A stretch of 64,000 nt of DNA from Rhodococcus sp. B7740. GTDB taxonomy: Bacteria > Actinomycetota > Actinomycetes > Mycobacteriales > Mycobacteriaceae. Shown here one piece after another: positions 46,952 to 64,000 of the stretch. The notes below the pieces were generated by a model. The model saw only the letters and a program-made list of their open reading frames with translations, searched no databases and was not told the DNA's origin. Position numbers and translations under genes: made by a program. Position 1 is the stretch's first letter; every line of letters starts with the position of its first letter. The DNA is taken from contig NZ_CP010797.1 in the NCBI RefSeq assembly GCF_000954115.1, positions 2,170,001 to 2,234,000 of the forward strand, given 5' to 3'.

Positions 46952-46976
46952 CGATTCGCCTTTCGTTCGGTTCTGG

Positions 46977-47818: not shown

Positions 47819-48577
47819 CGTTTCGAGTCGTAGACGATGCCACCGAAGGGTCCTTCTCTCCAATAGAGCGAACAGTAGATTGAGTCCGTAACCCAGCAGT
47901 CCGAGCATGATGAGTCCTGCCCACATGTCCGTCATGGCGTAGGTGCGCTGAGATTGCAGTACGAAGTAGCCGATCCCCTCGGACGAGGCGAACAGCTCGC
48001 TGCCCACCATCGCCACCACTGCAACGGCAACGCTGGTTCGCATTCCCGCGATGATCTGAGGTGTGGCGGAACGCAGGAACACGCGCATGCTCGAATCCCA
48101 CCGGCCGAGACGGTAACTCCTCGCGACATCGCGTACCAAAGGATCGACCGCGCGAACTCCGTCGACGGTGTTGAGCAACGTCGGCCACATGCAGGCGAAG
48201 GCGATGATGGCGACCTTCTGCACGACGTCCGTGCCGAGTAACACGATCGTCAGCGGAACCAGGGCGATAACCGGTGTGGCTCGGATGAATTCGAGTGTCG
48301 GGGACAGCGCACGATGCGTCTGCGGCATCGAACCCAGCGCCAGCCCGCACAGAATTCCGATTGTCACGCCGAGGAGGAACCCGATGCCGAAGTTTCGGAG
48401 GCTCGGCACCACGTGGACGGCGAACTGATCGGAGAACCACAGGTCTGCGAACCGCGTCATGATCTCGCGCAGCGGTGGAAAGTAGAACGAGGAACTACTG
48501 CTCGACACGAACCACCACAGTCCGACGAGAAGAACCGGAAGCCAGGCCTCGACGGCGATAGAACGAATACGGGTCAC
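47804..48577 (-). CDS. ABC transporter permease (SsuC/TauC-like)
   Basis: 257 residues and about six transmembrane helices. The EAA loop lies near RSYRLGRWDSSMRVFLRSATPQII, and PTLEFIRATPVIALVPL is the typical preceding helix. GTG 48577 overlaps the stop of the neighbouring permease and has AGGA 8 bases upstream. It pairs with that permease as a heterodimeric importer channel. Confidence 0.88.
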   Translation of the reverse strand: MTRIRSIAVEAWLPVLLVGLWWFVSSSSSSFYFPPLREIMTRFADLWFSDQFAVHVVPSLRNFGIGFLLGVTIGILCGLALGSMPQTHRALSPTLEFIRATPVIALVPLTIVLLGTDVVQKVAIIAFACMWPTLLNTVDGVRAVDPLVRDVARSYRLGRWDSSMRVFLRSATPQIIAGMRTSVAVAVVAMVGSELFASSEGIGYFVLQSQRTYAMTDMWAGLIMLGLLGYGLNLLFALLERRTLRWHRLRLETTAAQ

Positions 48578-49386
48578 GACGGAATCCTCTGCGATGGGTG
48601 CCAGCGGCACAGCCGGCGCTCGGCCGCGGCGAACAGATACAGCACGGCGACACCCATGAGGGCGGTCACCAGAGTCAGGGCAAAGACATCGACCATCTGC
48701 GCGTTCATCTGAGCCTGCGCGAGCGTCTTTCCGATTCCCGGTACTGCGGCCAACAGCTCGATTCCTATCGCGAGGAGCATCGCCATCACTGCAGCGATAC
48801 GAAAGCCGGTGGCCACGAACGGAGTAGCGGACGGCACGATGACGAAGCGGATGATCTGGAATCTGCTCAGGCGATACGACCGAGCCGCTTCGAGTGCTGC
48901 ACCGTCGACGTCCCGGACCCCGTACATCGTCTGGAGCAGGATCGGCCACACGCAGGCTGCCACCACCACCGTCAGCTCGGTCTGACGGGTGGTTCCGTAG
49001 ATGAGCGCGACGAGAGGGATGATCCCCAACGTCGGAATCGATCGAAGGAACTCGATGACGAATCGGCAACTGCGGTAGGCGAAGTCACTCGTCCCGAGCA
49101 GAATTCCCAACGGCACCGCGATGATGGTCGAGTACAGCAGGCCCAAGGCCCAGCCGGTCATGGTCGACGCGATATCGGTCCAGAACGTCGCCGTCGTCGC
49201 CATGTCCAGCACTCTCGCGGCCACCGGAACGGGCCCTGGAATCGTGTCCGCGGCGAACAGGCCGGACGACGACAGGGCGGCCCAGCCGAGTATGAGCAGC
49301 ACCGGAGCGATGGCCGTCTGCGCCGCGGAGGGTATCGCCGGTCGTACTCGGAGCACTGGCGCGGTGCGCAGCGCCGCACTGGTCAT
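48574..49386 (-). CDS. ABC transporter permease (second subunit)
   Basis: 270 residues and about six transmembrane helices. The EAA-type loop EAARSYRLSRFQIIRFVIVPSATP and FVIEFLRSIPTLGIIPLVAL match the taurine/sulfonate/nitrate permease family. ATG 49386 overlaps the stop of the binding-protein gene (ATGA). Two different permeases in one operon suggest a heterodimer. Confidence 0.88.
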   Translation of the reverse strand: MTSAALRTAPVLRVRPAIPSAAQTAIAPVLLILGWAALSSSGLFAADTIPGPVPVAARVLDMATTATFWTDIASTMTGWALGLLYSTIIAVPLGILLGTSDFAYRSCRFVIEFLRSIPTLGIIPLVALIYGTTRQTELTVVVAACVWPILLQTMYGVRDVDGAALEAARSYRLSRFQIIRFVIVPSATPFVATGFRIAAVMAMLLAIGIELLAAVPGIGKTLAQAQMNAQMVDVFALTLVTALMGVAVLYLFAAAERRLCRWHPSQRIPS

Positions 49387-50375
49387 CGGGTGAGCCCACT
49401 GATGTCGGCCGAAGAATCGAGCGCCCCGTTCTCCCGGAGAATCGTGGCGATGTCGTCCAGTCCCGCTGCATCGACGCGACTTTCGAGTGCCGGGTACCCC
49501 GTGTCCCCGACGGTGTCGGCCGGGGTGCCGAAATGTTCGACCATGGCGGCCCGCATGTCGTCGGGGTGCGAGTCGGCGTACTCCACGGACTCGTCGAGTG
49601 CGGTCTGGAATTTGTCGACCACCTCGGGGTTGGTCTCGACGTAGTCGCGGGTGCCGGTGACGACGACCCGGGGCGCGGGGCCGAAGACCTGCTCGATCGG
49701 GTCGCCCATCGGTGCCTCGAACTGTCCGGTCTTCAACAGCAGGCTGGCGTAGGGATCGCCGACCAGCGCCGCGTCGATCCGATCGGCGGTGAGTGACTCG
49801 CCCATGGCGGAGAACGGAACCTCGATGACCGACACGTCGCTGCCGTCGCCGCCCGCTTGGTCGACGACACCTCGGACCCCGTACTCGGATGCCGATGCCA
49901 GCAGGTTCACTCCGACCGTCTTGCCTTCGAGGTCGGCAGCGGTGCGAATCGGACTCCCCGCCTCGACCAGCAGGGTCGATCCGGTGCGTCCGTCCGGGCC
50001 TGCTTCGAAGGTGGAGACGCCGCCGACGACAGCCAGGGGTATCCCCTTTCCGGCCGCCATCACGGTGCCGGGACCGGTATTGGGATTCATGTCGACCTGA
50101 CCGCTGAGGAGACCACCGACCAGGTCCGCCGGCGTGATGTCGACGAGTTCGATGTTCAATCCGTTGCGCTCGAAGATGCCCTGGTCCACGCCCAGCAACA
50201 CCGCGGCGTAGTCGGACAACTGCACGTTGCCGAGACGGACGGTGGTCAGTCCGTTCTCCGACGCCGTAGGCGCGGCTTGTGTTCCACCGCATGCGGTCGC
50301 GGTCAGCGCCAGGAGGACCCCCGCGGTCGCGGCAATCGATCGCGTTCGGACATGTCGGCGCAGTGGAGTCATCAT
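49383..50375 (-). CDS. ABC transporter substrate-binding lipoprotein (SsuA/THI5-like)
   Basis: 330 residues. A lipoprotein signal ends in LTATAC (C29). The mature protein reads VRLGNVQLSDYAAVLLGVDQGIFERNGLNIELV and VDMNPNTGPGTVMAAGKGIPLAVVGG, typical of NMT1/SsuA-type binding proteins for small anionic or aromatic solutes. It is the first gene of the operon binding protein-permease-permease-ATPase-hydroxyacid oxidase. GAAGG lies 6 bases before the ATG. Ligand unknown. Confidence 0.87.
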   Translation of the reverse strand: MMTPLRRHVRTRSIAATAGVLLALTATACGGTQAAPTASENGLTTVRLGNVQLSDYAAVLLGVDQGIFERNGLNIELVDITPADLVGGLLSGQVDMNPNTGPGTVMAAGKGIPLAVVGGVSTFEAGPDGRTGSTLLVEAGSPIRTAADLEGKTVGVNLLASASEYGVRGVVDQAGGDGSDVSVIEVPFSAMGESLTADRIDAALVGDPYASLLLKTGQFEAPMGDPIEQVFGPAPRVVVTGTRDYVETNPEVVDKFQTALDESVEYADSHPDDMRAAMVEHFGTPADTVGDTGYPALESRVDAAGLDDIATILRENGALDSSADISGLTR

Positions 50376-50526
50376 CGATCACCTTCGGTTGGCTCGGTCC
50401 CGCTGCCTGCTGCAGCGTCGAAAGGTGACGATAGTGACGGAGACCACACTGCGATACAGATGATCCATCCACATTTCGACGTGCACAGTGGGGATCCAAT
50501 CCATCCCGTCCGAAGCCGGCTTCCCA

Positions 50527-50532
50527 TACTGT
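50527..50532 (+). promoter_or_regulatory. -10 box for a leaderless hydrolase transcript
   Basis: TACTGT fits TANNNT and ends 7 bases before ATG 50540; no ribosome site is present. Confidence 0.45.
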
Positions 50533-50539
50533 CGGCACC

Positions 50540-51376
50540 ATGACCATCGATCGAGTACCGGTATCCGGCGGGCACCTCGCCGTCGAAACACACACCGGCA
50601 CCAGCGAGCCCATCCTCGTGGTGCACGGTGTTTCCAGCCAGCGCATGCTCTGGAGCTGGCTGCGCGCGGAGTCGCCGCACCTGACACTCGTCGCCCCGGA
50701 CCTTCGCGGCAGAGGTGACAGCGTCGAGGTCACGGGACCGTCCTCGTTGGCTCAGCACGCAGACGACCTCGACGTCGTCCTGGACGCATTGGGGCTCGAC
50801 GCGGTGCACGTCTGCGGAATGTCGATGGGCGGATTCGTGGCGGTCGAGTTCGCGGCCCGGTACCCGTCCAGGGTGAAGAGTCTCGTCCTCGTCGACGGGG
50901 GCGTGCCGGTGGCACCGCCCGCCGGCCTCACGCAGGAGAACGTTGCCGCGGTCTTCGCGGACAGAATCGCTCGAACTCAGCAGCACTGGAACGACATCGG
51001 CGACTACATCGAATTCCTGGTCTCGACGTCGTTGCCGCTACTCGACCCCGCCGATCCGTTCTTGCGGACGTACGCCGAACACGATCTGGTCGACGGATCG
51101 GTCCGGCTGTCGTCCGATGCGGTCGTCGCGGACGCCACGGACGTCTTCTTCGGTGCCTCGCGGTTCCGGGAACTGACGATGCCGATTCGATTCCTGCACG
51201 CGCAGTGGAGCGTTGGCGCCGATTCCGCGCCGATGTACTCGAGCCAGATCGTCGACGCGCTCGACCTGACGTCCATCACCGCGATGCCGGGACTCGATCA
51301 CGCCGGAACGATCATGACCTCGGTGGGTGCCGCGGCCGTCGGAGCGACCGTCGATCAGGCTCTACGAGGCGAATGA
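50540..51376 (+). CDS. Alpha/beta hydrolase
   Basis: 278 residues with a canonical fold. The oxyanion segment LVVHGVSSQRMLW is at about 26-38, PDLRGRGDS follows, and the nucleophile serine is in GMSMGGF (about 93-99). The C-terminal histidine is in PGLDHAGTIM. Esterase, lactonase or C-C hydrolase activity cannot be told apart. It is divergent from the ABC importer operon, so it may act in the same pathway. Confidence 0.83.
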   Translation: MTIDRVPVSGGHLAVETHTGTSEPILVVHGVSSQRMLWSWLRAESPHLTLVAPDLRGRGDSVEVTGPSSLAQHADDLDVVLDALGLDAVHVCGMSMGGFVAVEFAARYPSRVKSLVLVDGGVPVAPPAGLTQENVAAVFADRIARTQQHWNDIGDYIEFLVSTSLPLLDPADPFLRTYAEHDLVDGSVRLSSDAVVADATDVFFGASRFRELTMPIRFLHAQWSVGADSAPMYSSQIVDALDLTSITAMPGLDHAGTIMTSVGAAAVGATVDQALRGE

Positions 51377-51419
51377 CTGCCCGATTCGAGCCGTCGACAC
51401 GAAACAGCCCCCTCACGCT

Positions 51420-52139
51420 CTACTGGGTTCGATCCCGAGCCAGGATGCGTTCGAGGTAGTCGAGATCCTCGCGGAGCATCGAGATGGCCCGCTCGGGCCC
51501 CTCCGGTACGACGGGCTTGCCGCTGTCCTGAGCAACGGTGCGCAGTGCCATGTCGGCGAGTTGAGTGGCCACGCTCCGATCGGCGTCGGGGTCACCGCTC
51601 TGGTGCCACCACGCGACCCAGTTGAGCATGCCGATGATGCCGAGTGCCGCAGTGCGCGGATCGACCGGCCGGAATTCCCCTGCCTTGACACCACTTTCGA
51701 CGACCGTCACGAACTCCTTGAGCACGTGCCGGCGACTCTGCTGGTAGGTGTGCGACATCTCCTCGGGGAGATCGGCTTCCGATCTGATGATGAGCTTGAA
51801 GCGATCGGCGCTCTGGGCCTGATTCAACGCGATCGCGGTCGCCATCTTCCGTAGCTTCTCCGTGGGCCCGAGGTCGGATCGCTCGTTGATCTCGTGCAGA
51901 ACAGCGGCCGGCGTCTCGGTGCTCTCGCTGATGAGTCGCGAGAGCAACTCGTCCTTGTTCGCTACGTAGTGGTACAGCGCCGGCCGAGTGAGACCGGTGG
52001 CATCGGCGATGTCCTGCAGGGTGGTACTGGCAAATCCCTTCTCGGCGAACAACCGCGTGGCCTGGTCGAGAATCTGCTTCTCGACCAGCTCCCGACGCGG
52101 GTTGCGCGCCGATCCCCGTGGTGAGTCCTCGCGTGTCAT
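51420..52139 (-). CDS. TetR-family regulator of the aromatic/lactam operon
   Basis: 239 residues. The helix-turn-helix is at about 20-68 (ATRLFAEKGFASTTLQDIAD, RPALYHYVANKDEL), with a C-terminal ligand domain of the TetR_C_33/KstR2-like style. It lies at the downstream end of the HyuA-HyuB-ligase-hydroxylase operon, 25 bases after the hydroxylase stop, but has its own TANNNT box. It is the only regulator in this segment and so the best candidate to bind the operators at 59891-59906 and 60021-60035, 8 kb upstream. Confidence 0.82.
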   Translation of the reverse strand: MTREDSPRGSARNPRRELVEKQILDQATRLFAEKGFASTTLQDIADATGLTRPALYHYVANKDELLSRLISESTETPAAVLHEINERSDLGPTEKLRKMATAIALNQAQSADRFKLIIRSEADLPEEMSHTYQQSRRHVLKEFVTVVESGVKAGEFRPVDPRTAALGIIGMLNWVAWWHQSGDPDADRSVATQLADMALRTVAQDSGKPVVPEGPERAISMLREDLDYLERILARDRTQ

Positions 52140-52145
52140 GACCGA

Positions 52146-52151
52146 AGAATA
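52146..52151 (-). promoter_or_regulatory. -10 box for a leaderless TetR transcript
   Basis: On the minus strand TATTCT fits TANNNT and ends 6 bases before ATG 52139. A TTGACG further upstream is too close to serve as its -35. Confidence 0.35.
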
Positions 52152-52164
52152 ACCGTCGCTCCCG

Positions 52165-53694
52165 TCAAGGACCGACAGACACCAGGTGGGTGCGCGCACC
52201 GACGAGACCTGCCACCGCGTCGGGCATGCACTCCTTCGGCACATCGACGACGACGAGTGCGCTGGTGCTACGCATCATTCGCTCCGCGACATCGAGACGA
52301 GTGAGGACGTGATCACGCTCCTCGGACCCGGTCAACCACACCGTTGAGCTCGCCTTGGCCTCGTCGACGACGGCCGTCGCCTTCTCGTTCCACGCTGACT
52401 CGACGTCCACGGAGACCACCGTCGTCGTCGGATCGTCGCGAAGATCGGACGGGGCGAATCGGTCGGGGAACGACCGCCCACCGTGGTCGATGGGCCGCGA
52501 GAGGATCCACCGAGATACGTCGACGGGAACCTCCGAGTCGGCCGGGACCTGTGCGTAGCCGGCAATTCCCTTCCACGCCACCTCGGGGGCGGAGTCGAGA
52601 AACCGCTCGAGACCGACCTTCCCGGCTCGCGTCATGTACGCAACCATGAGCTGGTCCACGGGTAGATCCATCCGCTGCGGGAAGGACTCCCACCACTGTT
52701 CACTGCGCACCGCGATCTGCTGGAGGTGGTCCACCGCAGGGCGACGCACCCGTTCGTACTCGGTGAGGGCTTCGTCGACCGTCGCAGCCGACGCCAGTGC
52801 GGCATCGAGGGCGATGGCGTCCTCCATGGCGAGCTTCGTTCCCGATCCGATCGAGTAGTGGGCTGTATGGGCGGCGTCCCCGAGAAGAACTGTGTTGTCC
52901 ACCGCCCACTTTCGGCACTTGACGGTTCGGAACTGCATCCACCTGGTCCGGTTGCCGATGAGGCTGTGATCCTGGAGTGTCTCGGAGAATGCCTTCTCGA
53001 GGTAGCGCAACGACGCCTCGTCGCTGTCGGCCGGATCCGTGGCAGCTGTCGTGACGTCGAAGCCCGCCCGGTGCCACGTGTCGAGATCGGTCTCGATCAG
53101 AAACGTACTGCGATCTGCCGCATAGGGATACGCGTGAGCGACGAATGTGCCGTGCTCGGTGGTGACGGGCACGAAGATGGCACTCGGCAGTGCGAAATCC
53201 GTTCCGCACCAGAGGTAGAGGCCGGTTCCGGTAGTGATGTCCGCACCGAATCGGTCGTCGGCCGTGCGTGTCGCGCTGTTGATCCCGTCCGATGCGATCA
53301 CGAGGTCGGCATCGAATTCGTGCGCTCGGTGACGTTCGCCGAACACGAGCCGAACCCCGGCGTCGCGTGCTTGCTGCTGCAGCACGGACAGCAGTCGGGC
53401 GCGGCCGATCGCGAGAAGATCGCCGTGGGCCAAGCGGGCCGTGCTGTCGCCGACCTGCATGGACATCTCGTGCGAATAGGATTCGGCCACAATCGCATCG
53501 AGGGATCTGGCGTCGGCCTGCCGAAGGTTGCGTTGCGTCCGTGACGCCAGCCCCACTCCGAAGCCGAACGTGGTATCCGGTGAACTCTGTTCGTAGACCG
53601 TGATCTCCGCGTCGGGATTGGACAGTTTCAACAGCCTTGCGGCGTAGAGCCCGCCCGGGCCTCCGCCGATGACTACGACGCGGTCGAGTTTCAT
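52165..53694 (-). CDS. FAD-dependent monooxygenase, aryl-CoA hydroxylase type (SdgC-like)
   Basis: 509 residues of the PHBH flavin monooxygenase family. GGGPGG is at 10-15 and the second FAD motif is GDAAHTAHYSIGSGTKLAMED. FGFGVGLASRTQRNLRQAD and the fixed KLAMEDA segment resemble salicylyl-CoA 5-hydroxylase (SdgC) and the N-terminal part of anthraniloyl-CoA monooxygenase rather than free-acid hydroxylases. It would use NAD(P)H and O2 on an aromatic thioester. ATG 53694 overlaps the aryl-AMP ligase stop, which supports a ligase-then-hydroxylase sequence. About 100 extra C-terminal residues have no clear domain. Confidence 0.83.
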   Translation of the reverse strand: MKLDRVVVIGGGPGGLYAARLLKLSNPDAEITVYEQSSPDTTFGFGVGLASRTQRNLRQADARSLDAIVAESYSHEMSMQVGDSTARLAHGDLLAIGRARLLSVLQQQARDAGVRLVFGERHRAHEFDADLVIASDGINSATRTADDRFGADITTGTGLYLWCGTDFALPSAIFVPVTTEHGTFVAHAYPYAADRSTFLIETDLDTWHRAGFDVTTAATDPADSDEASLRYLEKAFSETLQDHSLIGNRTRWMQFRTVKCRKWAVDNTVLLGDAAHTAHYSIGSGTKLAMEDAIALDAALASAATVDEALTEYERVRRPAVDHLQQIAVRSEQWWESFPQRMDLPVDQLMVAYMTRAGKVGLERFLDSAPEVAWKGIAGYAQVPADSEVPVDVSRWILSRPIDHGGRSFPDRFAPSDLRDDPTTTVVSVDVESAWNEKATAVVDEAKASSTVWLTGSEERDHVLTRLDVAERMMRSTSALVVVDVPKECMPDAVAGLVGARTHLVSVGP

Positions 53695-55370
53695 CGTTGC
53701 CTCTCGAGCTTCGCGGCGATGTCGAGCCGCAGACGCTTCTTGTCGATCTTGTTGACGTTGGTTCGGGGAAGCTCGTCCACCCATTCGAGACGTTCGGGCC
53801 ACTTGAACTTGGCCACGCCGAGCCCCGTGAGGTGTTCCTGTACGTCGGCCATCGTCAATGGCACCCCGTCGGTGACGAGATACGCGCACGTCTTCTCGCC
53901 GAGTCGAGGGTCGGGCATCGCGACCACGGCCGCGGAACGAACGGCTGGGTGATCGAGCAGCAGCAGCTCCACCTCCTCGGCGTTGATCTTCTCGCCGCCG
54001 CGGTTGATGAGGTCCTTGATCCGCCCCTCGATCGTGACGTACCGCTCGCCTGCGACGACGGAGATCGACGCCAGATCGCCGGTCCGGTAGAAACCGTCGG
54101 AGGTGAAGGCAGTTCGATTGTGCTCGGGGGCACCGAAATACCCGGTGATCGTGTACGGACCACGGCAGCACAGTTCCCCGACTTCCCCGTCGGGCAGCTC
54201 GATCTCCGTACCGGGATCGAGGATGCGCACCTCGTCCTCCGCGCAGACCGGGGTGCCGACGGTGGCGATCCGGGCGTCGCGGGGAGCGGCGACCGGGGTG
54301 ACGGTGAGCAACCCCTCGGACATTCCGAACAACTGACCCGCCCAATGATCTCGACCGTCGTCGACGCGGTCCATCAGTGCCGGTGACACTTTGGCACCGG
54401 ACAGGATCACGTGCCGCAGACGCTCACGCACGCGATCGAACTCGGGACTCGACACGGCCTGGTAGTGACCGTGGCCGATCAACACCTCGGTGGCTTCCGC
54501 GCGTTCCATGAGGTCGAACGCCGATCGGACGTCGGCGGTCGCGAGTACGAGACACGCGCCGACCGAGTGCGAGGCGTGCAGACCGCAGGCAATCCCTGCG
54601 TTGTGGACGATGGGAATCAGATGGGCGACGCGGCTGTCCGATGTCCACTCGAGCCGCTGCGCGTACATGAGTGCGTTGTTCCAGTACTCGGCATGGATCC
54701 GCGGAATGACCTTCGGTACTCCCGTTGTCCCGCCTGACAATTGGAAGGCAACGACGTCCTCGGGATCGGTCTCGGCCTCGATGGCTTCGACGACTGCTCG
54801 GGCCTCGGTGGGGTCGATGCCCTGCCCGAGGTCCTCGAGGCGCAGCTCGCCACCCTCTGCTGCTCCGACGGTCACAACATGGCGAACGGTCTGGCTGCCC
54901 GCGGCGTGCTCGTGGGCGAACGAGACCAGATCGAACGACGGCAGACCGGCCTCCACCACGTGCGCGACCGCACCCACCGCGGCACCGATGTGCGCGATCT
55001 CGTGCATCCGGTGCGCGGCCAGTGTGGCGACCGGAACGAGCCCGGCCTTGAGACAGCCGTACCACGCCAGCACCGTCTCCAGCCGGTTCGTCAGTTGGAA
55101 CAGCACCGGATCGAGGCGCAGCAGACCCAGTCGAACCAATCCGGCGGCGATGGCGTCGGTACGACGGTCGAGTTCGGCGAAGGTCATCGACCCCTCTGCG
55201 CTGATGACGGCGGGCCGGTCGGGATACCGGACAGCGATGTCGCGGAACCGTCGGCTGGTCGGTAGCGAACTCCACGAACCGCTCTGCAGATAGTGCTGTG
55301 CTCGGTCCTGCGGGTATCGCACCAGCCTGCCGTCCCAGTCCGAGTGGGTCGCCTCGGTGGTCACCGTCAT
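53691..55370 (-). CDS. Aryl-AMP ligase (EntE/DhbE/SdgA-like)
   Basis: 559 residues. The phosphate loop is QLSGGTTGVPKVIPRIHAEY, then FGMSEGLL, FYRTGDLA and the C-terminal lysine in NVNKIDKKRLR. SGGTTG followed by PRIHAEYWNN is characteristic of 2,3-dihydroxybenzoate/salicylate-AMP ligases. It overlaps HyuB upstream and the flavin hydroxylase downstream by ATGA junctions. With no siderophore synthetase nearby, a catabolic role like SdgA in salicylate breakdown is more likely than siderophore synthesis. Confidence 0.86.
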   Translation of the reverse strand: MTVTTEATHSDWDGRLVRYPQDRAQHYLQSGSWSSLPTSRRFRDIAVRYPDRPAVISAEGSMTFAELDRRTDAIAAGLVRLGLLRLDPVLFQLTNRLETVLAWYGCLKAGLVPVATLAAHRMHEIAHIGAAVGAVAHVVEAGLPSFDLVSFAHEHAAGSQTVRHVVTVGAAEGGELRLEDLGQGIDPTEARAVVEAIEAETDPEDVVAFQLSGGTTGVPKVIPRIHAEYWNNALMYAQRLEWTSDSRVAHLIPIVHNAGIACGLHASHSVGACLVLATADVRSAFDLMERAEATEVLIGHGHYQAVSSPEFDRVRERLRHVILSGAKVSPALMDRVDDGRDHWAGQLFGMSEGLLTVTPVAAPRDARIATVGTPVCAEDEVRILDPGTEIELPDGEVGELCCRGPYTITGYFGAPEHNRTAFTSDGFYRTGDLASISVVAGERYVTIEGRIKDLINRGGEKINAEEVELLLLDHPAVRSAAVVAMPDPRLGEKTCAYLVTDGVPLTMADVQEHLTGLGVAKFKWPERLEWVDELPRTNVNKIDKKRLRLDIAAKLERQR

Positions 55371-57688
55371 CGCTGAGCCACCGCGGGAAGCAATCGAGAG
55401 ATCTCCAACGAATGATCGGGGTGGTCGGCCGGGACGATTCCCGAGTAGACGGCCGTCCAGCATCCGGGGCAGCACAGTTGGCGAAAGACGATGGGAGTGT
55501 CGACGTACTCGGCCGGATCCGAGGTCACCTGCGGTCCGGCCGCCGAGGACGGGCCCTCGTAGCGAGCCAGATCCAGTACACCGCTGTTCTTCTCGTCACC
55601 GAGCAGTCGCCCGCACTGTGCGCAGGCGATGACCCGAACGTCCCCGACGGTCACCTCGGACAGGTTGTCGTCGAGCCGCCTGGCCAGCGAAAGATCCATG
55701 ATGGGGGCGTCGGAATGCTGGGTGGAACGCGTGCGCCGTTCGTCGATCATGTCCCGACGTCGTCGCGTAGTTGCTGCCTCGTCCACCTTTCCCCCGTCGA
55801 TCACCACGCCGTAGACGATGTTCGCGCCCTCCGCGGTGACCTTGCCTTCGCGTAGGTCCACCACGACGGCCTCCGGATCGCGATGCAACGGATCTCCGTA
55901 ACCGCCGCCGCCCTGCCAGTGCATGTACAGCACTTCACCCGGAGCGACGTAGCTTTCGGCGTAGCACGCGCCGAATTCCTTTCCGCCGCCCAGCTCTTCG
56001 AGGGCCCCGGGAATCTTTCCCGCTGCGAACTGCTCGATGACGTCGGTACTGCGTGCCAGGATTTCGAGTCCGGTGTTACCCGGGTATCCGCCGGCGAGAC
56101 CGTTGTTCTGCGCCACGGCTTTACCCGCAGACGCAAGCACGAGGCCCATCGGGAGCGAGGTGCCGTACGGCGTGACAGCGAGCGATGCACTGACGCCACC
56201 TCGTTGACGACCGGGTCCACCGGAGTCCGGCTCTTCACGACGCCACAGCGTGAGCAGCGGGTAGAGGAACTCGGTCATTTCCGTATCGGGGATGCGCCCC
56301 ATCGGAATACAGAAGAGTCCGCCGGTATCCATGCCGTCTGCGGTCGGGCGTGCGCCGTAACCGCCTGCCATCGGTTCCATCATGATGTTGAGGAACGGAA
56401 CGGGTTGTTCTCCGCGTTCGTCGAGGCCTGCGATCACGGCGGTGTCCCAGGTGCCGCAACATGCAGCCTGCACGCTCTTGCCGAGGTCGACCGATCGGTC
56501 GAGCATCTGCGACAGACATTCGGCGATGAGGGTTCCGGTCAGCCACGCCGGTCCGATGGGACCACGGCTGACCGCCGCCGGGAAGCTCGCGTTGTTGATG
56601 GTGCCCTCTTCGGAGACCAGGTCGAAGCATCGCATCAATCCGCCTGCGGACCAGGGAATGTCACCCGCGAGGATCGGAAGCAAGGCGAGCATGACGCCGC
56701 CGCGCATTCCTGCGTAGGTGCAGTTGATGACGCCCGTCTGCTTGTCGGTGCCGGTGAAGTCGAACGTGAGATGGTCGGCGGTCTTGCTCATCGCGACGGT
56801 GATCTTGTGCACGTCGCGATCACCGGTGTGCGACTGGTCCTGGTAGCCGGTGGCCTTCCAGGTCCCGTCGGGCAGCGACGAGAGTTTGCTGCGCAGTCGG
56901 CCTTCGGCGTCGGTCATCATGCGCTTCATGACGGCCTTGACGGTGTCGGCCCCGTACTGCTCGATGACGGCGAGCATGCGATTGCGTCCGACGGTGTTCG
57001 CACCGATCTTCGCCCGCAGGTCGAGCCCGACCAGCATCGGAACTCGGGAGCGTCGCACCCAGAGATCGGCGATGTCGCGCTGGAGTTCGTAGTCGCGGAC
57101 GACCTTGACCGGTGGAGTCGGAAGTGATTCGGAGAACACATCTTTCGCGGACGGGTCGAACGACCCGAGTCCGGAACCGCCGAGGTCGGGTTCGTGGCAG
57201 ATCGCGCTGGTCCAGGCGAACAACTTGCCCTCGTGGAAGATGGGTTGGTAGACGATGACGTCGCTCTGGTGCAGTCCCCCGCCGACCCACGGGTCGTTGC
57301 ACAGGAACATGTCACCCGGCGCGATTCCGGGGTTGGCGGCGCGATGTTGCAGCGTCCAGTAGATCGCCAGGTCCACGGCTCCGACGAGCATGGTGTTGTA
57401 CAGGCCGACCTGAACCTCTTGTCCCAGTTCGTCACTGATTGCGAAGTCGAAATCGTTCGCGTCGGTGACGATGGGTGAGCCCGACATTCGTTTGAGCGCC
57501 TCGCCCATCTCGTCGGTGACCGACCAGAGTCGGTGCCGGATGACCTCGTAGGTCAACGGATCGAGGTCGTCGATCTGCTGCTGCGTGACGGTGTGCACCG
57601 GCAGGGTCGGCGGGAGGGTGCGCGCGAGAGCGTCGGGATCGACGGGGCGGGACGAGAAGATCTCGGACCCGGGAATTGCTGATGTCAT
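55367..57688 (-). CDS. HyuB-type subunit fused to a carboxylase gamma-like zinc domain
   Basis: 773 residues. About 1-600 is a hydantoinase B/oxoprolinase domain (YEVIRHRLWSVTDEMGEALK, FLCNDPWVGGGLHQSDV, GGGGYGDPLHRDPE). About 655-773 is a small domain with CAQCG and CCPGC pairs, like the gamma subunit of acetone/acetophenone carboxylases. With HyuA it should form an ATP-dependent enzyme that either opens a lactam/hydantoin ring or carboxylates a ketone. AGGAGA precedes ATG 57688. The fusion resembles joined ApcD and ApcC, and I favour the carboxylase-like group, without proof of substrate. Confidence 0.85.
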   Translation of the reverse strand: MTSAIPGSEIFSSRPVDPDALARTLPPTLPVHTVTQQQIDDLDPLTYEVIRHRLWSVTDEMGEALKRMSGSPIVTDANDFDFAISDELGQEVQVGLYNTMLVGAVDLAIYWTLQHRAANPGIAPGDMFLCNDPWVGGGLHQSDVIVYQPIFHEGKLFAWTSAICHEPDLGGSGLGSFDPSAKDVFSESLPTPPVKVVRDYELQRDIADLWVRRSRVPMLVGLDLRAKIGANTVGRNRMLAVIEQYGADTVKAVMKRMMTDAEGRLRSKLSSLPDGTWKATGYQDQSHTGDRDVHKITVAMSKTADHLTFDFTGTDKQTGVINCTYAGMRGGVMLALLPILAGDIPWSAGGLMRCFDLVSEEGTINNASFPAAVSRGPIGPAWLTGTLIAECLSQMLDRSVDLGKSVQAACCGTWDTAVIAGLDERGEQPVPFLNIMMEPMAGGYGARPTADGMDTGGLFCIPMGRIPDTEMTEFLYPLLTLWRREEPDSGGPGRQRGGVSASLAVTPYGTSLPMGLVLASAGKAVAQNNGLAGGYPGNTGLEILARSTDVIEQFAAGKIPGALEELGGGKEFGACYAESYVAPGEVLYMHWQGGGGYGDPLHRDPEAVVVDLREGKVTAEGANIVYGVVIDGGKVDEAATTRRRRDMIDERRTRSTQHSDAPIMDLSLARRLDDNLSEVTVGDVRVIACAQCGRLLGDEKNSGVLDLARYEGPSSAAGPQVTSDPAEYVDTPIVFRQLCCPGCWTAVYSGIVPADHPDHSLEISRLLPAVAQR

Positions 57689-57708
57689 GGTGCGGTTCTC
57701 CTGTGGTC

Positions 57709-59811
57709 TCAGCCGGCGACGATGTTGAGGTTGCCGAGGCGGTCGACAGTTCCGGTGGTGCCGTGCGGGACGACGACGGTCGTCGTAGGGACTTCGACGA
57801 TGGCGGGGCCGGCCAGGACGTGCCCGGCAGCGAGCTTGCTGTAGTCGTAGATATCAGTGTCGACGTAGCCGATTCGACCGTCCAGGTTGACTTTTCGGGA
57901 GCCGATGCGGGCCGCCGATGCGTCGGCGGAGTCGGCCGACTTCAATTCGGGCAGAGTCGGCGAGAACGGCAGCACGCCCGTCGCGCGAACGCGATAGGTG
58001 ATCGCCTGAATGCCGGCTTCGCGGAATCCACTGTCCTTGCCGTACAGATCTGCGTACCGCTGCTCGAAGAGGTCCGAGGCATGGGCGACACTCGCCGAGT
58101 CCAGCGAGCCTCCTGGAACGGTCGTGGCCACCTCGGCCAGCTGCATCGTGTACCGCATGTCGATTTCACGTTCGACCTCGACGGATGTGAAATTGAGACC
58201 CTGCCGACCGAGGGCGTCGCGCACCCGCTTCTCGAGGCTCTCGAAATTGGCCTCGGCGCGGGCCGGATCGAGGGGCATCGCGGCCGGGTCGGACAGCTCG
58301 GCCGCGAGCACGATGTTCGACGACGCAAGACCGTAGGCCGAGAACGCCGACGCCACCTGCCCGAGCGGAACGATGACCTCCTTGACGCCGACCTCGGCGG
58401 CATACGCGGCGCAGTGCGACGGTCCGGCTCCACCGAATGCGTAGAGGACGAAGTTGCGCGGATCGTGTCCGGCTTCGACGACGGTCTTGCGCAGGAGATC
58501 GCCGGTCTGCGCGTTCTGCACGGCGTAGATCGCAGCCGCCGCATCCTCGATCGACAGACCGAGCGGTTCCGCGATTCGGCGTCGAATGGCCTCGCGCGCA
58601 AGCTCTTTGTCGAGTGGTTTGCGACCGCCGAGCAACCCGCGTTCGGGGAGGATGCCGAGGACGAGGTTGGCATCGGCATTGGTGGGTTCGGTTCCGCCCT
58701 GCCCGTAACAGGCGGGACCGGGTACGGCTTGCGCGCTGTGCGGTCCGATCTGAAGATTGCCGCCTGCATCCACCCAGGCGATGGCGCCGCCGCCGGAGCC
58801 GATGGCGTGTACCTGGAGGGTGGGCACGTTGATCGGGTGGTGATTGATGATGGTGCTCGACGCGCGTACCGGTTCACCGTCGACGACCAAGCCGACCAGG
58901 AACGTGGTTCCGCCGACGTCGGTGGCGATGATGTTCTCGTGTCCCAGCTGCTTTCCGAGCGACACGGCACCGACCACGCCGCCGGTCAACACGGAACCGA
59001 CTGTGCTGATGGCGTTCTTCGGGGCCTCGGCTGCGGCAACGGCACCGCCGTTGCTCTGCATCACCAGCAGTGGGCCGGCGAGGTCGAGGGCACGCAGCTC
59101 CTTCTCCAACGAACCGAGGTAGTCGCGCAGTCCCGGACCGATCTGAGTGCTCATGATCGTGGTCGCGTTGCGGGCGAACTCACGGATGCGCGGGCTCACC
59201 TCGGAGGACAGCGAGACGAACATGTCGGGCGCGATCTCGTGCACCAGTTCACGAATACGCTGCTCGTGCACCGGGTTACGGAACGACCAGAGCAGCGAGA
59301 CCGCAATGCCGGAGACGCCGTCGTCGACGAGGCTTCGGATGGCGACGCGCGCGGACTCCTCGTCGAGGGCAACGACGACATTGCCGTCTCGATCGAGCCG
59401 TTCGGTGACCTCGAGTGCATGCCGCTTGGGAACCAGACCGTGGGACTTGCTCTGCCCCAACACGTTCTGCAGTTGCTCGGGCGAACCACCGAGGTAACGG
59501 CCCTCGACGTTCATGATGTAGATCGAATCCCGATGCCCCTTGGTGGTCAGGAACCCGACCGGCGGGACATTGCCCATCACCAGAGCATTGAGCGAGGACG
59601 TGGTGCCGTGCGCGATGTGGTGGGTGTTCGCGAGCATCTCCTGCACCGGGCATCCGAGCTGCTCGGCCAACGCTTCGAGAACGTCGATGACGCCCTGGGA
59701 ATAGTCGGGTGGAGTCGAGGGCGCCTTGGCCGCGACCACGGTGCCGGAACTGTCGTCGAGTACTGCATCCGTGAACGTTCCGCCGACGTCCACTCCGATC
59801 ACATAGGTCAT
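57709..59811 (-). CDS. HyuA-type ATP-dependent subunit (hydantoinase A/carboxylase)
   Basis: 700 residues. The N-terminal actin-like ATPase segment GVDVGGTFTDAVLDD is at 6-20, IATDVGGTTFLVGLV is the second phosphate loop, and LYAFGGAGPSHCAAYA is the adenosine-binding part. It matches 5-oxoprolinase/N-methylhydantoinase and the acetone or acetophenone carboxylase ATPase subunit. ATG 59811 has GGAG 9 bases upstream. It is the first gene of the leftward operon and ends 20 bases before HyuB, its obligate partner. Confidence 0.9.
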   Translation of the reverse strand: MTYVIGVDVGGTFTDAVLDDSSGTVVAAKAPSTPPDYSQGVIDVLEALAEQLGCPVQEMLANTHHIAHGTTSSLNALVMGNVPPVGFLTTKGHRDSIYIMNVEGRYLGGSPEQLQNVLGQSKSHGLVPKRHALEVTERLDRDGNVVVALDEESARVAIRSLVDDGVSGIAVSLLWSFRNPVHEQRIRELVHEIAPDMFVSLSSEVSPRIREFARNATTIMSTQIGPGLRDYLGSLEKELRALDLAGPLLVMQSNGGAVAAAEAPKNAISTVGSVLTGGVVGAVSLGKQLGHENIIATDVGGTTFLVGLVVDGEPVRASSTIINHHPINVPTLQVHAIGSGGGAIAWVDAGGNLQIGPHSAQAVPGPACYGQGGTEPTNADANLVLGILPERGLLGGRKPLDKELAREAIRRRIAEPLGLSIEDAAAAIYAVQNAQTGDLLRKTVVEAGHDPRNFVLYAFGGAGPSHCAAYAAEVGVKEVIVPLGQVASAFSAYGLASSNIVLAAELSDPAAMPLDPARAEANFESLEKRVRDALGRQGLNFTSVEVEREIDMRYTMQLAEVATTVPGGSLDSASVAHASDLFEQRYADLYGKDSGFREAGIQAITYRVRATGVLPFSPTLPELKSADSADASAARIGSRKVNLDGRIGYVDTDIYDYSKLAAGHVLAGPAIVEVPTTTVVVPHGTTGTVDRLGNLNIVAG

Positions 59812-59890
59812 GCCGGTGTGCTCCTTAGGTCCGAGTCGAAGACGTTCTGGCATGTGAGAGCGAGGCACCCTCGAACACTGCTTACGTCTG

Positions 59891-59906
59891 CGTCGAGTAT
59901 TCGACG
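59891..59906. promoter_or_regulatory. Operator on the leftward (hyuA) promoter
   Basis: CGTCGAGTATTCGACG: arms CGTCGA/TCGACG around GTAT. Its 13 bases 59894-59906 recur inverted at 60021-60033. It overlaps the -10 box of the hyuA promoter. Confidence 0.65.
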
Positions 59907-59924
59907 TGACCGACGACATGTCAA
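59896..59924 (-). promoter_or_regulatory. Promoter of the leftward HyuA operon
   Basis: On the minus strand, -35 TTGACA (59919-59924) and -10 AATACT (59896-59901) are 17 bases apart. The message would have an untranslated leader of about 75-80 bases before ATG 59811. Confidence 0.65.
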
Positions 59925-60002
59925 GCACGAATGTGAGTGCTGTCACCTCCCTCGATTCCGTCCGACTCGATACTGCCGTTCACTTCCGCTGGTGGACGCC
60001 AC

Positions 60003-60031
60003 TTGACGAATCATCGCAAACGTCGAATACT
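60003..60031 (+). promoter_or_regulatory. Promoter of the rightward operon
   Basis: -35 TTGACG (60003-60008) and -10 AATACT (60026-60031) are 17 bases apart, the mirror of the hyuA promoter, and within 35 bases of ATG 60064. Confidence 0.65.
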
Positions 60032-60035
60032 CGTC
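60021..60035. promoter_or_regulatory. Operator on the rightward promoter
   Basis: CGTCGAATACTCGTC overlaps the rightward -10. Its first 13 bases are the exact reverse complement of 59894-59906. A related half-site CGTCAAATAC follows at 60041-60050. Confidence 0.65.
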
Positions 60036-60063
60036 ACCAACGTCAAATACCGGAAGGCAGTGC

Positions 60064-60816
60064 ATGAATATTCACCGTGTGGGCTTGGTCGTTCCGAGCT
60101 CCAACGTCACCGTGGAAACGGAGATGCCGGCCCTGTTGGCGCGACATCGACAGGCGCGGTTCTCGTTCCACTCCTCGCGGATGCGCATGCAGGCCGTGTC
60201 ACCGGAGCAACTGCGAGCGATGAACGCCCAGCGAGAGCGGTGCATCCTCGAATTGGGTGATGCCGGGATCGACGCCGTTCTCTACGCCTGCCTCGTCGCC
60301 CTGATGGTCGCCGGGCCCGGGGAACACCAACGCGTCGAGGGGTTGGTGGCCGAGCAACTCGCCGCGGGCGGATCCGATGCAGCCGTCCGGTCGAGCGCGG
60401 GAGCCCTCGTGGAAGGTCTGCGCGCTCTGGACGCGAGCAACATCGTTCTCGTGACGCCGTACATGCGACCACTCGCGGAGAAGGTGGTCGAGTACATCGA
60501 GGCCGAAGGTATTCGCGTACTCGATTGGCGTGCCCTCGAAGTCTCCGACAACGCCGAAGTCGGCTGTATCCCTGGCGAACGAGTCATGGACGCGGCCAGA
60601 TCGTTGGATCTCACCGGTGCCGACGCACTGGTGATCTCCGCGTGCGTACAGATGCCGTCCCTGCCTCTCGTCCAGGCTGCCGAGGACGAGTTCGGGATTC
60701 CCGTGCTCTCGGCCGCCACGGCAGGTGCCTACAGCCTGCTCCGTGCGCTCGACCTGTCCGTCGATCTACCGGATGCCGGCTCGTTGCTCCGCGCGGACGC
60801 CGTCGTCGCGTCGTAG
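60064..60816 (+). CDS. Maleate isomerase / Asp-Glu racemase-fold enzyme
   Basis: 250 residues. The opening RVGLVVPSSNVTVETEMPAL and the two active-site cysteines in LYACLVALM and ISACVQMPSLP match the maleate cis-trans isomerase/arylmalonate decarboxylase branch of the Asp/Glu racemase superfamily. It could isomerise a maleate-type ring-cleavage product to fumarate, or act as a racemase partner for HyuAB. GGAAGG precedes ATG 60064. It is the first gene of the rightward operon. Confidence 0.82.
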   Translation: MNIHRVGLVVPSSNVTVETEMPALLARHRQARFSFHSSRMRMQAVSPEQLRAMNAQRERCILELGDAGIDAVLYACLVALMVAGPGEHQRVEGLVAEQLAAGGSDAAVRSSAGALVEGLRALDASNIVLVTPYMRPLAEKVVEYIEAEGIRVLDWRALEVSDNAEVGCIPGERVMDAARSLDLTGADALVISACVQMPSLPLVQAAEDEFGIPVLSAATAGAYSLLRALDLSVDLPDAGSLLRADAVVAS

Positions 60817-60844
60817 ATCGTCACTTCGTAGAGAGGAAATCTCC

Positions 60845-61480
60845 ATGTCCGACTTGCCACACAAGGTTCGGGGCGTCGACCACGTCGCCTATCCCACGTT
60901 CGATCCGGCAGCAACGGTCGAGTTCTACCGCGACGTGCTCGGGTTCCCCGTCGTCCATTCCATCTGCGCAGCGGGGTGGGGACCGGAGAAGCATCCGGAC
61001 TTCATCCACTTCTTCTTCGACATCGGCAACGATGATCGCCTCGCATTCTTCTACTATTTCGGTCTCGAGCCGTTCGACGGTGGACCACAGGGTGACGCGT
61101 ATTCACGCTTCGCCGAGGACGTACCGATCTTCTTCATCCGCTCGCGTCACCTGGCGATTCACGTCGACAGCGAAGAAGACCTGATGGAGTATCGACGACG
61201 GCTCGACGGCAGCGACTGGCCCGTGGAGATGCAGATTCAGCACGAGACGATCGAGTCCATCTACACCCACGATCCCAACGGCTACATGATCGAGCTCACC
61301 CGCGCGATGCGTCCGGTCACGCCACAGGAAGATCTCGACGCGAATCTGACGATCGACGCCCTGATCGACGTCGTTCGCGGACCCGACCCGAGTATGGCGA
61401 ACCTGTTGACCCGCAAGGCCGAGTTGATCGTCGAGCGTGCGGCCGACTGGTCGGCCGAGAACGAGGTGGGGGTGTCGTGA
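60845..61480 (+). CDS. VOC-family (glyoxalase/extradiol dioxygenase-like) enzyme
   Basis: 211 residues. VRGVDHVAYPTFDPAATVEF gives the first metal histidine, SRHLAIHVDSEEDL the second, and DPNGYMIELTRAM the C-terminal glutamate, so a 2-His-1-Glu metal site is present. Family members are ring-cleaving dioxygenases, lyases or isomerases. In this operon ring cleavage of a hydroxylated aromatic is plausible but unproven. GAGG lies before ATG 60845. Its stop overlaps the next gene. Confidence 0.82.
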   Translation: MSDLPHKVRGVDHVAYPTFDPAATVEFYRDVLGFPVVHSICAAGWGPEKHPDFIHFFFDIGNDDRLAFFYYFGLEPFDGGPQGDAYSRFAEDVPIFFIRSRHLAIHVDSEEDLMEYRRRLDGSDWPVEMQIQHETIESIYTHDPNGYMIELTRAMRPVTPQEDLDANLTIDALIDVVRGPDPSMANLLTRKAELIVERAADWSAENEVGVS

Positions 61481-61722
61481 CCACGCTGTACGTCCTCGAC
61501 ATTCCGGAGAACACGACGATCGCGTCGGTTGCGGACATCGATCCGGCCGTGCGCGTGGACCATGTCGGCCCGTACTTCCGCATAGTCTCGGACGGGGACA
61601 TCGTGATCGATCGTCGGGCGACCGGATGCAGGCACGCAGTCTGGTACAGCAGTGTCTCGGGCCTGTCCGACTCTCGAATCACACAGTGGGACAAAGACGC
61701 TCTGCGCGTCGAGGGATCATGA
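61477..61722 (+). CDS. Small conserved-context protein of unknown function
   Basis: 81 residues, GTG start overlapping the VOC gene stop, and its own stop overlapping the hydrolase ATG. The tight coupling shows it belongs to the operon. I recognise no domain. The sequence has alternating short beta-like segments (TTLYVLDIPE, YFRIVSDGDIVID) and one Cys (ATGCRHAVW), and no membrane segment. It could be an accessory subunit. Confidence 0.7.
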   Translation: MTTLYVLDIPENTTIASVADIDPAVRVDHVGPYFRIVSDGDIVIDRRATGCRHAVWYSSVSGLSDSRITQWDKDALRVEGS

Positions 61723-62948
61723 CTGCGGCCCGTCTCGGGGCCGGTCGCTACATCGACGCCGCCGAGGCACCGAGCAACACCGTCACCTCGACGCACGAGC
61801 TGACCACCGCAGATGGCGCCAAGGTCAGCGGAGTGCTGAGAACGGTTCCCGGTGCCGACGTCGTCGTGGCGTTGATGCACCCGAGACAGGATCTGACGCA
61901 CCACGTACTGGTGCCCGAACTCCTCGCCCGCGGATACGCGGTGTGGACCCAGGGCACGCGTTCGGTGAACAACGACATCTCCCTGGTACACGAGCAGGCA
62001 TTGCTCGACGCAGCCGCCGGGCAGGTATTCCTGCGTTCACGGTCGTTCGATCACGTTGTGACGCTGGGACACTCCGGCGGCGGCACCCTGTTCTCGTTCT
62101 ACCACGAGCAGGCCGGTCTCGCGCCGGAGCATCGACTGACGGCCACCCCGTCCGGCCGGCCGATCGATCTCGCATCGGCGGAGATGCCGGTGCCGGACGG
62201 AGCGATCTTCATGGCCCCGCACCCCGGACAGGGTGCGCTGCTGCTGCGACTGATCGATCCGTCCGTCGTCGACGAATCCGACCCCATGTCCATCGACCCG
62301 TCGCTCGATCCCTTCGATGCAGCCAACGGATTCGTCGACGCACCGGAAAGTTCGTCGTATCCGGAGGACTTCGTTCATCGGTATCGCGCCGCGCAGCACG
62401 AGCGCGTCGCTCGGCTGGACGCGCTCGCGCGGGCACGGGTCGCCGAAGCATCCGAGGCCCGGCGGCGATTCAAGACAAGCGGTGATCCTGCCGACCGTCG
62501 AGATGCGTTGGCACCGCGCATATTGACCGTTTATCGTACCGACGCGGACCTGAGATTCACCGACCTCTCGCTCAGTCCGAACGCTCGACCGTACGGTTCG
62601 TTGTTCGGCCGACGGCCGGATCTGACGAACTACGGGCTCGTGGGTTTCGCGCGCCTGTCCACGCCCGATGCCTGGTTGTCGACGTGGTCCGGTCTGAGCT
62701 CCAACGCCGACTTCGTTCGGTGCGCACCGTCGGTGACGGTCCCGTCGCTGTTCGTCGAACTGACCGGCGATCAGGCGTGTTTCCCGGAGGACGCGTCGAG
62801 GATGGTCGAGGCTCTCGGCTCGATCGACAAGACCCGCGTGGCGATCGAGGGCACCCACTTCGGCGGACCCATTCGTACGGGCGCACGCACCGGCGCTTCT
62901 CTGGCCGCCGCCGATATCGGTGCCTGGTTGTCCGACCACTTCATCTGA
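61719..62948 (+). CDS. Large alpha/beta hydrolase
   Basis: 409 residues. The nucleophile S119 is in TLGHSGGGTLFSFYHEQAG, an acidic residue in ELTGDQACF and the histidine in IEGTHFGG. A long insertion between about 130 and 330 forms a large cap. No signal peptide. It overlaps the small gene upstream by ATGA. Hydrolysis of an ester, thioester or C-C bond in the same pathway is expected. Confidence 0.82.
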   Translation: MTAARLGAGRYIDAAEAPSNTVTSTHELTTADGAKVSGVLRTVPGADVVVALMHPRQDLTHHVLVPELLARGYAVWTQGTRSVNNDISLVHEQALLDAAAGQVFLRSRSFDHVVTLGHSGGGTLFSFYHEQAGLAPEHRLTATPSGRPIDLASAEMPVPDGAIFMAPHPGQGALLLRLIDPSVVDESDPMSIDPSLDPFDAANGFVDAPESSSYPEDFVHRYRAAQHERVARLDALARARVAEASEARRRFKTSGDPADRRDALAPRILTVYRTDADLRFTDLSLSPNARPYGSLFGRRPDLTNYGLVGFARLSTPDAWLSTWSGLSSNADFVRCAPSVTVPSLFVELTGDQACFPEDASRMVEALGSIDKTRVAIEGTHFGGPIRTGARTGASLAAADIGAWLSDHFI

Positions 62949-62969
62949 CCCTCTTGCGAGCGGAAACAC

Positions 62970-64000
62970 ATGTCACGTAACACTTTTTCTCCCGTGGTCG
63001 CACTTTGTCTGGCGGCGCTGACGCTGGAAGGGTACGACCTTCTGATGTACGGAACGGTGGTTCCGTCGCTCCTGGCGTACGAGCCGTGGGATTTGGATCC
63101 GGCGACCGTCGGGGTACTCGGATCCGTGGTGGGAGTCGGCATGCTCGCCGGGGCACTCGCCGCGGGCAGCATCGCGGATCGCTGGGGTAGGCGACGCGCC
63201 TTGATCGCCGCGGTCGCGTTGTTCTCGGCCGCAATGGGATGCTGTGCGATTGCACCCTCACCCGAGATCTTCGGAGCAGCGCGATTCGTCGTCGGCGTCG
63301 GAGCAGGAGTGCTGATGCCGACCGCTGCATCGATGCTGATCGAATTCTCCCGACTGGACACGAGAGCACGAACGGTCGCACTGGGATTCGTGGGCACCAG
63401 CGTCGGCGGTATCGCGGCGGGGATCCTGTCGCTCTGGCTCGTCCCGGCGTTCGGCTTCCGAGCGATGTTCGCAGCAGGGATGATCCCAGCGTTGTTGATT
63501 CTGCCGGCAATGCTCAGACATCTTCCCGAATCACCCGCGTTCCTCAACTCGCGGGGCAGGACGGATGCAGCACAGAGGATCTCGACCCATTACGGACTCG
63601 AGGAAGCATCGGAGAGTGCCGGTGGCGACCCGACATCGACGGATCGCGGAATCGGCGCGCTGTTCACCGCGAACCGTGCGCGAGTGACGTTGTCCTTCTG
63701 GGTGATGACCCTGCTGTGCCTTCTCGTGTTGTTCGGTGTCGCGACCTGGCTGCCCGCTGTCATGAGGTCGGCCGGATACCCACTCGGCGCCGCGCTGTCC
63801 TTCTTGCTGGTGCTCAATGTGGGCGGTGCAGTAGGTGCTCTCGGCGGTGCTCACCTGGCCGATCGCTACGGAATCAAACCGGTGACCACCCTTGGATTCC
63901 TTTGTGCAGCAGTATCGTTGGCCCTGATCGCGACCACTCCCCCGATCGGCATCGTGTACGTTCTGGTGCTGATCGCAGGAATGGGTACGACGGGGACGCA
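62970..64000 (+). CDS. MFS transporter, aromatic acid:H+ symporter type (partial)
   Basis: The frame from ATG 62970 stays open to the window edge, giving 343 residues and about nine transmembrane helices; the end is missing. LTLEGYDLLMYGTVVPSLLAY and the TM2-TM3 loop IADRWGRRRALI match the AAHS family (PcaK, BenK, GenK), which imports aromatic acids. It begins 21 bases after the hydrolase stop, so it is in the same operon and points to an aromatic acid as the growth substrate. Confidence 0.85.
   Translation, partial: MSRNTFSPVVALCLAALTLEGYDLLMYGTVVPSLLAYEPWDLDPATVGVLGSVVGVGMLAGALAAGSIADRWGRRRALIAAVALFSAAMGCCAIAPSPEIFGAARFVVGVGAGVLMPTAASMLIEFSRLDTRARTVALGFVGTSVGGIAAGILSLWLVPAFGFRAMFAAGMIPALLILPAMLRHLPESPAFLNSRGRTDAAQRISTHYGLEEASESAGGDPTSTDRGIGALFTANRARVTLSFWVMTLLCLLVLFGVATWLPAVMRSAGYPLGAALSFLLVLNVGGAVGALGGAHLADRYGIKPVTTLGFLCAAVSLALIATTPPIGIVYVLVLIAGMGTTGT

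Follow-up and report, generated by a model that had tools for sequence, protein, structure and literature searches.

What do two back-to-back operons of Rhodococcus sp. B7740 degrade, and what does a HyuAB-type enzyme do at the head of one of them? The operons lie near the end of a 64,000-nucleotide stretch of contig NZ_CP010797.1 (positions 2,170,001 to 2,234,000), hereafter the window, to which all coordinates refer. The original prediction had read them as one catabolic unit, in which HyuAB would act on a lactam or carboxylate a ketone, with SdgA/SdgC-like activation and hydroxylation and a maleate-type end. Our analysis indicates that the cluster is a real, conserved catabolic unit with signs of shared control, and the pathway frame is probable. 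The best guess for the substrate is an o-hydroxyaryl ketone or acid. Our preferred answer, still tentative and with a rough probability of 45%, is that both operons serve a single pathway in which HyuA and HyuB-gamma would use ATP and bicarbonate to carboxylate an ortho-hydroxyaryl methyl ketone.

Open reading frames (ORFs) together with Pfam and NCBIfam matches confirmed two divergent operons between positions 51420 and 64286, with the following features.

51420..52148, minus strand: TetR-family regulator, final gene of the left operon (TetR_N 58.3 bits, TetR_C_24 84 bits)
52165..53697, minus strand: FAD hydroxylase, 510 aa (NF006101 322 bits, FAD_binding_3)
53691..55370, minus strand: aryl-AMP/CoA ligase, salicylate-AMP-ligase-like (PDB 5wm2, 346 bits)
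55367..57688, minus strand: HyuB (beta) with a fused gamma domain, 773 aa (Hydantoinase_B 430 bits)
57709..59811, minus strand: HyuA (alpha), ATP-dependent activating subunit, 700 aa (Hydantoinase_A, Hydant_A_N, Hydant_A_C)
59891..59906: operator-like site 1, palindromic, 81 bp before hyuA (motif CGTCGAGTATTCGACG)
60021..60036: operator-like site 2, 42 bp before the isomerase gene (inverted site-1 motif, 2 mismatches)
60064..60816, plus strand: maleate isomerase (2xec_A 395 bits)
60845..61480, plus strand: candidate VOC-family ring-cleavage dioxygenase (Glyoxalase 57.5 bits)
61477..61722, plus strand: 81-aa accessory domain of the VOC enzyme (its profile matches the VOC C-terminal part in fused loci)
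61719..62948, plus strand: serine alpha/beta hydrolase (conserved S119, D351, H380; no Pfam match)
62970..64286, plus strand (window ends at 64000): candidate aromatic acid:H+ symport-type MFS transporter (TIGR00895, 227 bits)

Mostly overlapping genes had been predicted and were found: hydroxylase and ligase share 7 bp, and ligase and HyuB, the VOC and 81-aa ORFs, and the 81-aa ORF and hydrolase 4 bp each. Gaps of 16-21 bp separate tetR from the hydroxylase, HyuB from HyuA and the hydrolase from the MFS gene, and one of 28 bp the isomerase from the VOC gene. The genes stood as named, with three amendments: the transporter continues past the window to 64286, the gene listed as unknown encodes the VOC accessory domain, and the isomerase is maleate isomerase-like. 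The next likely gene, Hsp20, begins at 65661, and no continuation of the right operon was seen in the 15 kb past the window.

HyuA has the ASKHA ATP motif DVGGT at residues 8 and 298 and ERLDRDG at 137; the adenosine motif GxxPGP has no exact match in it. These motifs, the Pfam matches and the accompanying beta subunit place the pair in the hydantoinase/ketone carboxylase family. In HyuB, H140, D143 and H165 align with His99, Asp102 and His124 of CapB, residues named in PMC8453981. Residues ~650-773 of HyuB have a predicted fold that matches the gamma subunit of acetone/acetophenone carboxylase, and this tail carries four cysteines (Cys 689, 692, 740, 743), all invariant in alignment A2. In relatives gamma is a separate ORF after hyuB, whereas it is absent from 12 of 12 control stretches carrying other HyuA/HyuB pairs. 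A gamma with four conserved cysteines, encoded after beta, marks the ketone-carboxylase branch; two-gene lactamases lack a gamma subunit, according to excerpts from PMC5214803. Because the tail folds, by prediction, like this four-cysteine gamma, a ketone carboxylase is a more probable identity for HyuA-HyuB-gamma than a lactamase, to judge from sequence and modelled structure.

The pair fully fits neither acetophenone carboxylase nor acetone carboxylase. Acetophenone carboxylase has a second alpha' subunit and usually an epsilon; here one HyuA gene was called per cluster. The other HyuA match of the genome lies 2.1 Mb away (G000:C1:79850-81901, L170; 36-37% identity), and no gamma was found in the surrounding 13 kb. 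Acetone carboxylase has a beta of ~720 aa and a gamma with ~50 extra N-terminal residues, an approximate criterion given in excerpts from PMC5214803; here beta is ~650 aa and gamma ~120 aa.

Conservation was analyzed around the hydroxylase. At a loose cut-off it matched in 71 of 101 near genomes, and 19 stretches surrounding the best hits were compared. In the 14 best of these (L034-L047, hydroxylase identity 64-97%) all nine genes from tetR to the hydrolase occur in identical order, and nine also hold an MFS orthologue (66-94%). Two further stretches (L049, L050) keep the cluster genes in rearranged order, and L048 ends inside the isomerase. The last two (L051, L052) contain isomerase, VOC, 81-aa and hydrolase genes plus a hydroxylase and a ligase at ~40% identity, with no hyuAB in the stretch; they also carry an aldehyde dehydrogenase (Pfam for L051) and an SDR, and L052 adds a P450 and a reductase. 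Many neighbour genes, namely SDR, P450, reductase, FadL-like, Rieske-like and MFS, were named by eye from the sequence here and below. In an order-wide sample of 397 Mycobacteriales genomes (hydrolase cut-off E<=1e-70; in the rows listed no genome had more than 2 HyuB and 4 hydrolase candidates scored, so that weaker copies may escape), 16 have the hydrolase and 15 of these also hold HyuB-gamma at 67-100% identity on the same contig, 2.6-12 kb away. The sixteenth, G247, lacks any HyuB relative at E<=1e-20. The same draw gave nine further HyuB rows at 55-57% identity. The two operons are thus kept together, as the original prediction demanded of a single unit.

The 252-bp gap between hyuA and the isomerase gene holds both operator-like sites. 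Both were aligned in the window and L034-L047. The window and 13 of these 14 same-order relatives (L034-L046, not L047) keep them intact, site 1 as GTCGARTAYTCG. Single sites stand beside cluster genes in four of the 14 stretches L146-L159 (L149, L155, L156, L157). A 12-letter pattern gave 16 rows genome-wide, three of them at this cluster, against one row for the reversed control; the 16-letter site with <=3 mismatches has 6 matches in the window versus 2.2 expected, a number reached by 4 of 100 shuffles. Since the motif is common to both operons and their synteny is conserved, they look co-regulated, as far as sequence can tell. We infer that TetR binds the two motifs; it would probably repress both operons until substrate binds.

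The ligase is closest in the PDB to the salicylate-AMP ligase 5wm2. It keeps the Asn of an HN pair and the Cys found in two salicylate-type pockets, and it has a GHGHY motif; the remaining pocket positions, which we take to line the salicylate pocket, differ. GH-x-(H/M)-(Y/F) occurs in 27 of 28 HyuAB-type Mycobacteriales loci, as GHGHY or GHGHF in 25; L150 and L152 vary and L149 has no such motif. The motif may reflect ancestry, because a Streptomyces plasmid that has no HyuB relative also bears it and both Burkholderiaceae with HyuAB lack it. The hydroxylase resembles the N-terminal half of salicylyl-CoA 5-hydroxylase: NF006101 scores 322 bits over residues 6-364, below its curated cut-off of 1078, and the profile match to longer homologues stops near residue 384. 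The reductase half of that enzyme was not recognisable, and a degenerate ene-reductase half at the hydroxylase end was rejected (hhalign probability 9%). SdgA/SdgC-like activation and hydroxylation are supported.

The right operon supports the maleate-type end. The isomerase is 76% identical to the solved maleate isomerase 2xec_A over 249 aa, and the two cysteines of such enzymes, both presumably catalytic, are kept in the aligned sequences, some genes entered twice (C76 in 78 of 78, C194 in 77 of 78). Hydantoin racemase and arylmalonate decarboxylase were rejected, given the second cysteine and 395 bits for maleate isomerase versus 25 for the decarboxylase. Among solved structures the VOC protein is most closely related to 9u42, whose title is homogentisate 1,2-dioxygenase. 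H13, H102, H133, Y140 and E150 are kept in 88-89 of 89 sequences (81 loci), so that the conserved positions contain the His-His-Glu metal-site pattern (H13, H102, E150), and the protein is a candidate ring-cleavage dioxygenase. In 31 of the 81 loci the profile of the 81-aa protein matches the C-terminal part of a fused VOC protein (i-E 2e-32 to 5e-23), which identifies it, at the sequence level, as an accessory domain of the enzyme. S119, D351 and H380 of the hydrolase are present in all 113 sequences of an alignment that includes some genes twice, and its family comprises 2909 near and far relatives at E<=0.001; this protein likely cleaves the ring-fission product. The transporter scores 227 bits with TIGR00895 (AAHS), computed on its in-window part only, against a cut-off of 418.55 bits.

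In the proposed pathway, HyuA would phosphorylate the enol of the ketone and HyuB would join it to CO2, giving a beta-keto acid that the ligase would convert to an AMP/CoA ester. A thiolase, unlinked except in two Burkholderiaceae, would then release salicylyl-CoA, a stage at which acids imported or made by alcohol/aldehyde dehydrogenases could also enter. The SdgC-like flavoenzyme would hydroxylate para to the OH, and the VOC protein with its 81-aa partner would open the para-diol ring beside the acyl carbon. Finally, the serine hydrolase would release maleate and a C3 keto fragment from the product, and the isomerase would turn maleate into fumarate.

Other bacteria bear on this scheme. The ligase-hydroxylase-VOC-hydrolase-isomerase core was found in Proteobacterial stretches without HyuAB, and HyuAB therefore looks like a feeder onto this core. 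Paraburkholderia oxyphila (L103, L164) has the genes arranged as hydrolase-ligase-VOC-hydroxylase-isomerase-thiolase-hyuA-hyuB-gamma-SDR, and G702 agrees, its VOC gene not being called by the script; these are the 2 of 299 Burkholderiaceae genomes whose HyuB match reaches E<=1e-200. Among 79 scan loci, the 7 that have a thiolase of one motif type are also the 7 that have a FadL-like ORF; in six of these the stretch contains no hyuAB, and 4 more loci carry other thiolase-family ORFs. The script called genes by a simple GC-frame rule and gave no hydrolase in 5 of the 79 loci where the scan had matched one. The route from ketone through beta-keto acid and CoA ester to thiolysis accounts best for the thiolase linkage in Burkholderiaceae and the scan loci. 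Its main weakness is that no thiolase was seen in Rhodococcus-type clusters.

How do other explanations compare? HyuA-HyuB-gamma could hydrolyse a lactam or cyclic imide, opening an N-heterocycle to the ligase's acid, with gamma as a passive structural part. The top family-model scores are indeed to caprolactamase and HyuA's best PDB chain is an N-methylhydantoinase, but the gamma domain, fused or adjacent throughout this clade and missing from the controls and the two-gene lactamases, and the thiolase adjoining hyuAB in both Burkholderiaceae loci make this unlikely. The lactam and N-heterocycle option of the original prediction thus loses weight. It is similarly improbable that the enzyme works at the lower end of the pathway, where the hydrolase would free a small methyl ketone (acetone-like or derived from acetoacetate) for it to carboxylate and the thiolase would finish the route. 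Ring fission followed by C-C hydrolysis would yield CH3-CO-R, and thiolase and SDR flank hyuAB in Burkholderiaceae; however, the Rhodococcus-type hyuAB heads the ligase-hydroxylase operon rather than the lower one, and HyuA is nearer to Apc (380 bits) than to acetone carboxylase (288 bits).

Carboxylation of a phenol ortho to its OH, through the keto tautomer, would deliver salicylate directly to the ligase, and would account both for the thiolase not seen in Rhodococcus and for the salicylate-type Asn and Cys of the ligase. We know of no precedent for phenol carboxylation in the HyuAB-type family, which together with the Burkholderiaceae thiolase renders this very improbable. Nor do we give much credence to two independent pathways that share merely regulator and locus: the core exists without a HyuB relative in G047 and G247, but 15 of the 16 hydrolase-bearing Mycobacteriales genomes keep HyuB-gamma within 12 kb despite varying gene order. 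Kinship with the biotin carboxylase HpeCBA was set aside. Beyond the single-pathway reading that we prefer lies a more doubtful proposal: HyuA-HyuB-gamma may be a third branch of ATP-dependent ketone carboxylases, with one alpha and a beta fused to gamma, which would fix CO2 on o-hydroxyaryl ketones in aerobes. It would supply a CoA-dependent para-diol cleavage of the VOC type, in which the accessory domain is detachable and the end product is maleate.

Several neighbouring and related loci were also observed. L146, L147 and L148 have paralogues of HyuA (61%) and HyuB-gamma (56-57%). The operon-like run around them includes an aromatic-ring FAD hydroxylase (Pfam for L146) together with an alpha/beta hydrolase and an MFS transporter, both named by eye, and may encode another ketone-carboxylase pathway. 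Homologues in L165-L169 lie beside aldehyde dehydrogenase (Pfam, L165) and, as named by eye, Rieske-type oxygenase-like or P450 and ferredoxin reductase genes, and L167 has a Dioxygenase_C (PF00775) gene nearby. On a Streptomyces chartreusis plasmid (L054, 3236-13033) the isomerase-VOC-81aa-hydrolase-ligase core stands beside a cupin, FAH and maleylpyruvate isomerase set, and transposase genes directly precede the isomerase; no hydroxylase was called in this stretch. In the window, an FMN-dependent dehydrogenase and then an ABC importer with an NMT1/THI5-like binding protein occupy 45710-50375 on the minus strand; importer parts adjoin the cluster in 2 of the 14 stretches L034-L047 (L034, L039). 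The ABC transporter, FMN dehydrogenase and alpha/beta hydrolase at 45.7-51.4 kb were set aside as pathway parts, the hydrolase occurring in 5 of the 13 loci L034-L046. RNA elements were dropped (0 Rfam matches in 46000-64000), and a scan of the window gave 0 tRNAs. Downstream, a second catabolic-looking cluster (L033 13135-18566; 73.1-78.6 kb on the window scale) has, by eye, MBL hydrolase, EthD-like, TetR, AMP ligase, alcohol dehydrogenase and SDR genes.

Literature searches found no description of this gene set. In its workings the cluster resembles a CoA-dependent salicylate-type pathway that is fed by a ketone carboxylase and ends in maleate, but it does not fully match the definitions of Apc and Acx or the curated SdgC model. 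In the lower pathway of nicotinate, maleate is converted to fumarate by the same enzyme family as our isomerase; the pyridine-diol dioxygenase, deformylase and maleamate amidase of that pathway were not recognised in the cluster. The aryl-AMP ligase and the salicylyl-CoA 5-hydroxylase-like enzyme resemble those of the sdgA-C route (excerpt from PMC13215587), which we take to lead from salicylate to gentisate via CoA, but a VOC protein, serine hydrolase and maleate isomerase replace the cupin gentisate dioxygenase and maleylpyruvate isomerase. The cluster, if our reading is true, would be a maleate-ending alternative to the gentisate pathway. The Acinetobacter VOC-type homogentisate 1,2-dioxygenase (9u42, by title) is 27% identical to a Proteobacterial orthologue of the VOC protein in a Foldseek alignment; the same reading would assign a role to the VOC/81-aa pair and to a hydrolase family without a Pfam match.

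Acetone carboxylase (acxABC) shares the alpha-beta-gamma set and gene order, whereas the cluster has a shorter beta part and gamma, lower HyuA/HyuB scores and an aromatic gene context. Acetophenone carboxylase and benzoylacetate-CoA ligase of Aromatoleum aromaticum (apcABCDE, bal) are alike in ATP-dependent HyuA/HyuB-type subunits, gamma and an adjoining CoA ligase gene (excerpts from PMC5214803); our cluster differs in its single HyuA, the fusion of gamma to HyuB, the lack of a visible epsilon, the salicylate-type ligase and the linked oxygenase-type ring-cleavage genes. The Aromatoleum enzyme serves aerobic degradation too, according to an excerpt from PMC4729919. The Hpe pathway of Rhodococcus rhodochrous GD02 likewise carboxylates an aryl methyl ketone aerobically ahead of a CoA ligase, but HpeCBA is biotin-dependent, acts on a phosphorylated substrate and is not HyuAB; in the excerpted text its authors knew of no other aerobic aromatic pathway with a carboxylation (PMC9618137). 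If our reading is true, Rhodococcus and its kin would carboxylate aromatic ketones by a biotin-free enzyme.

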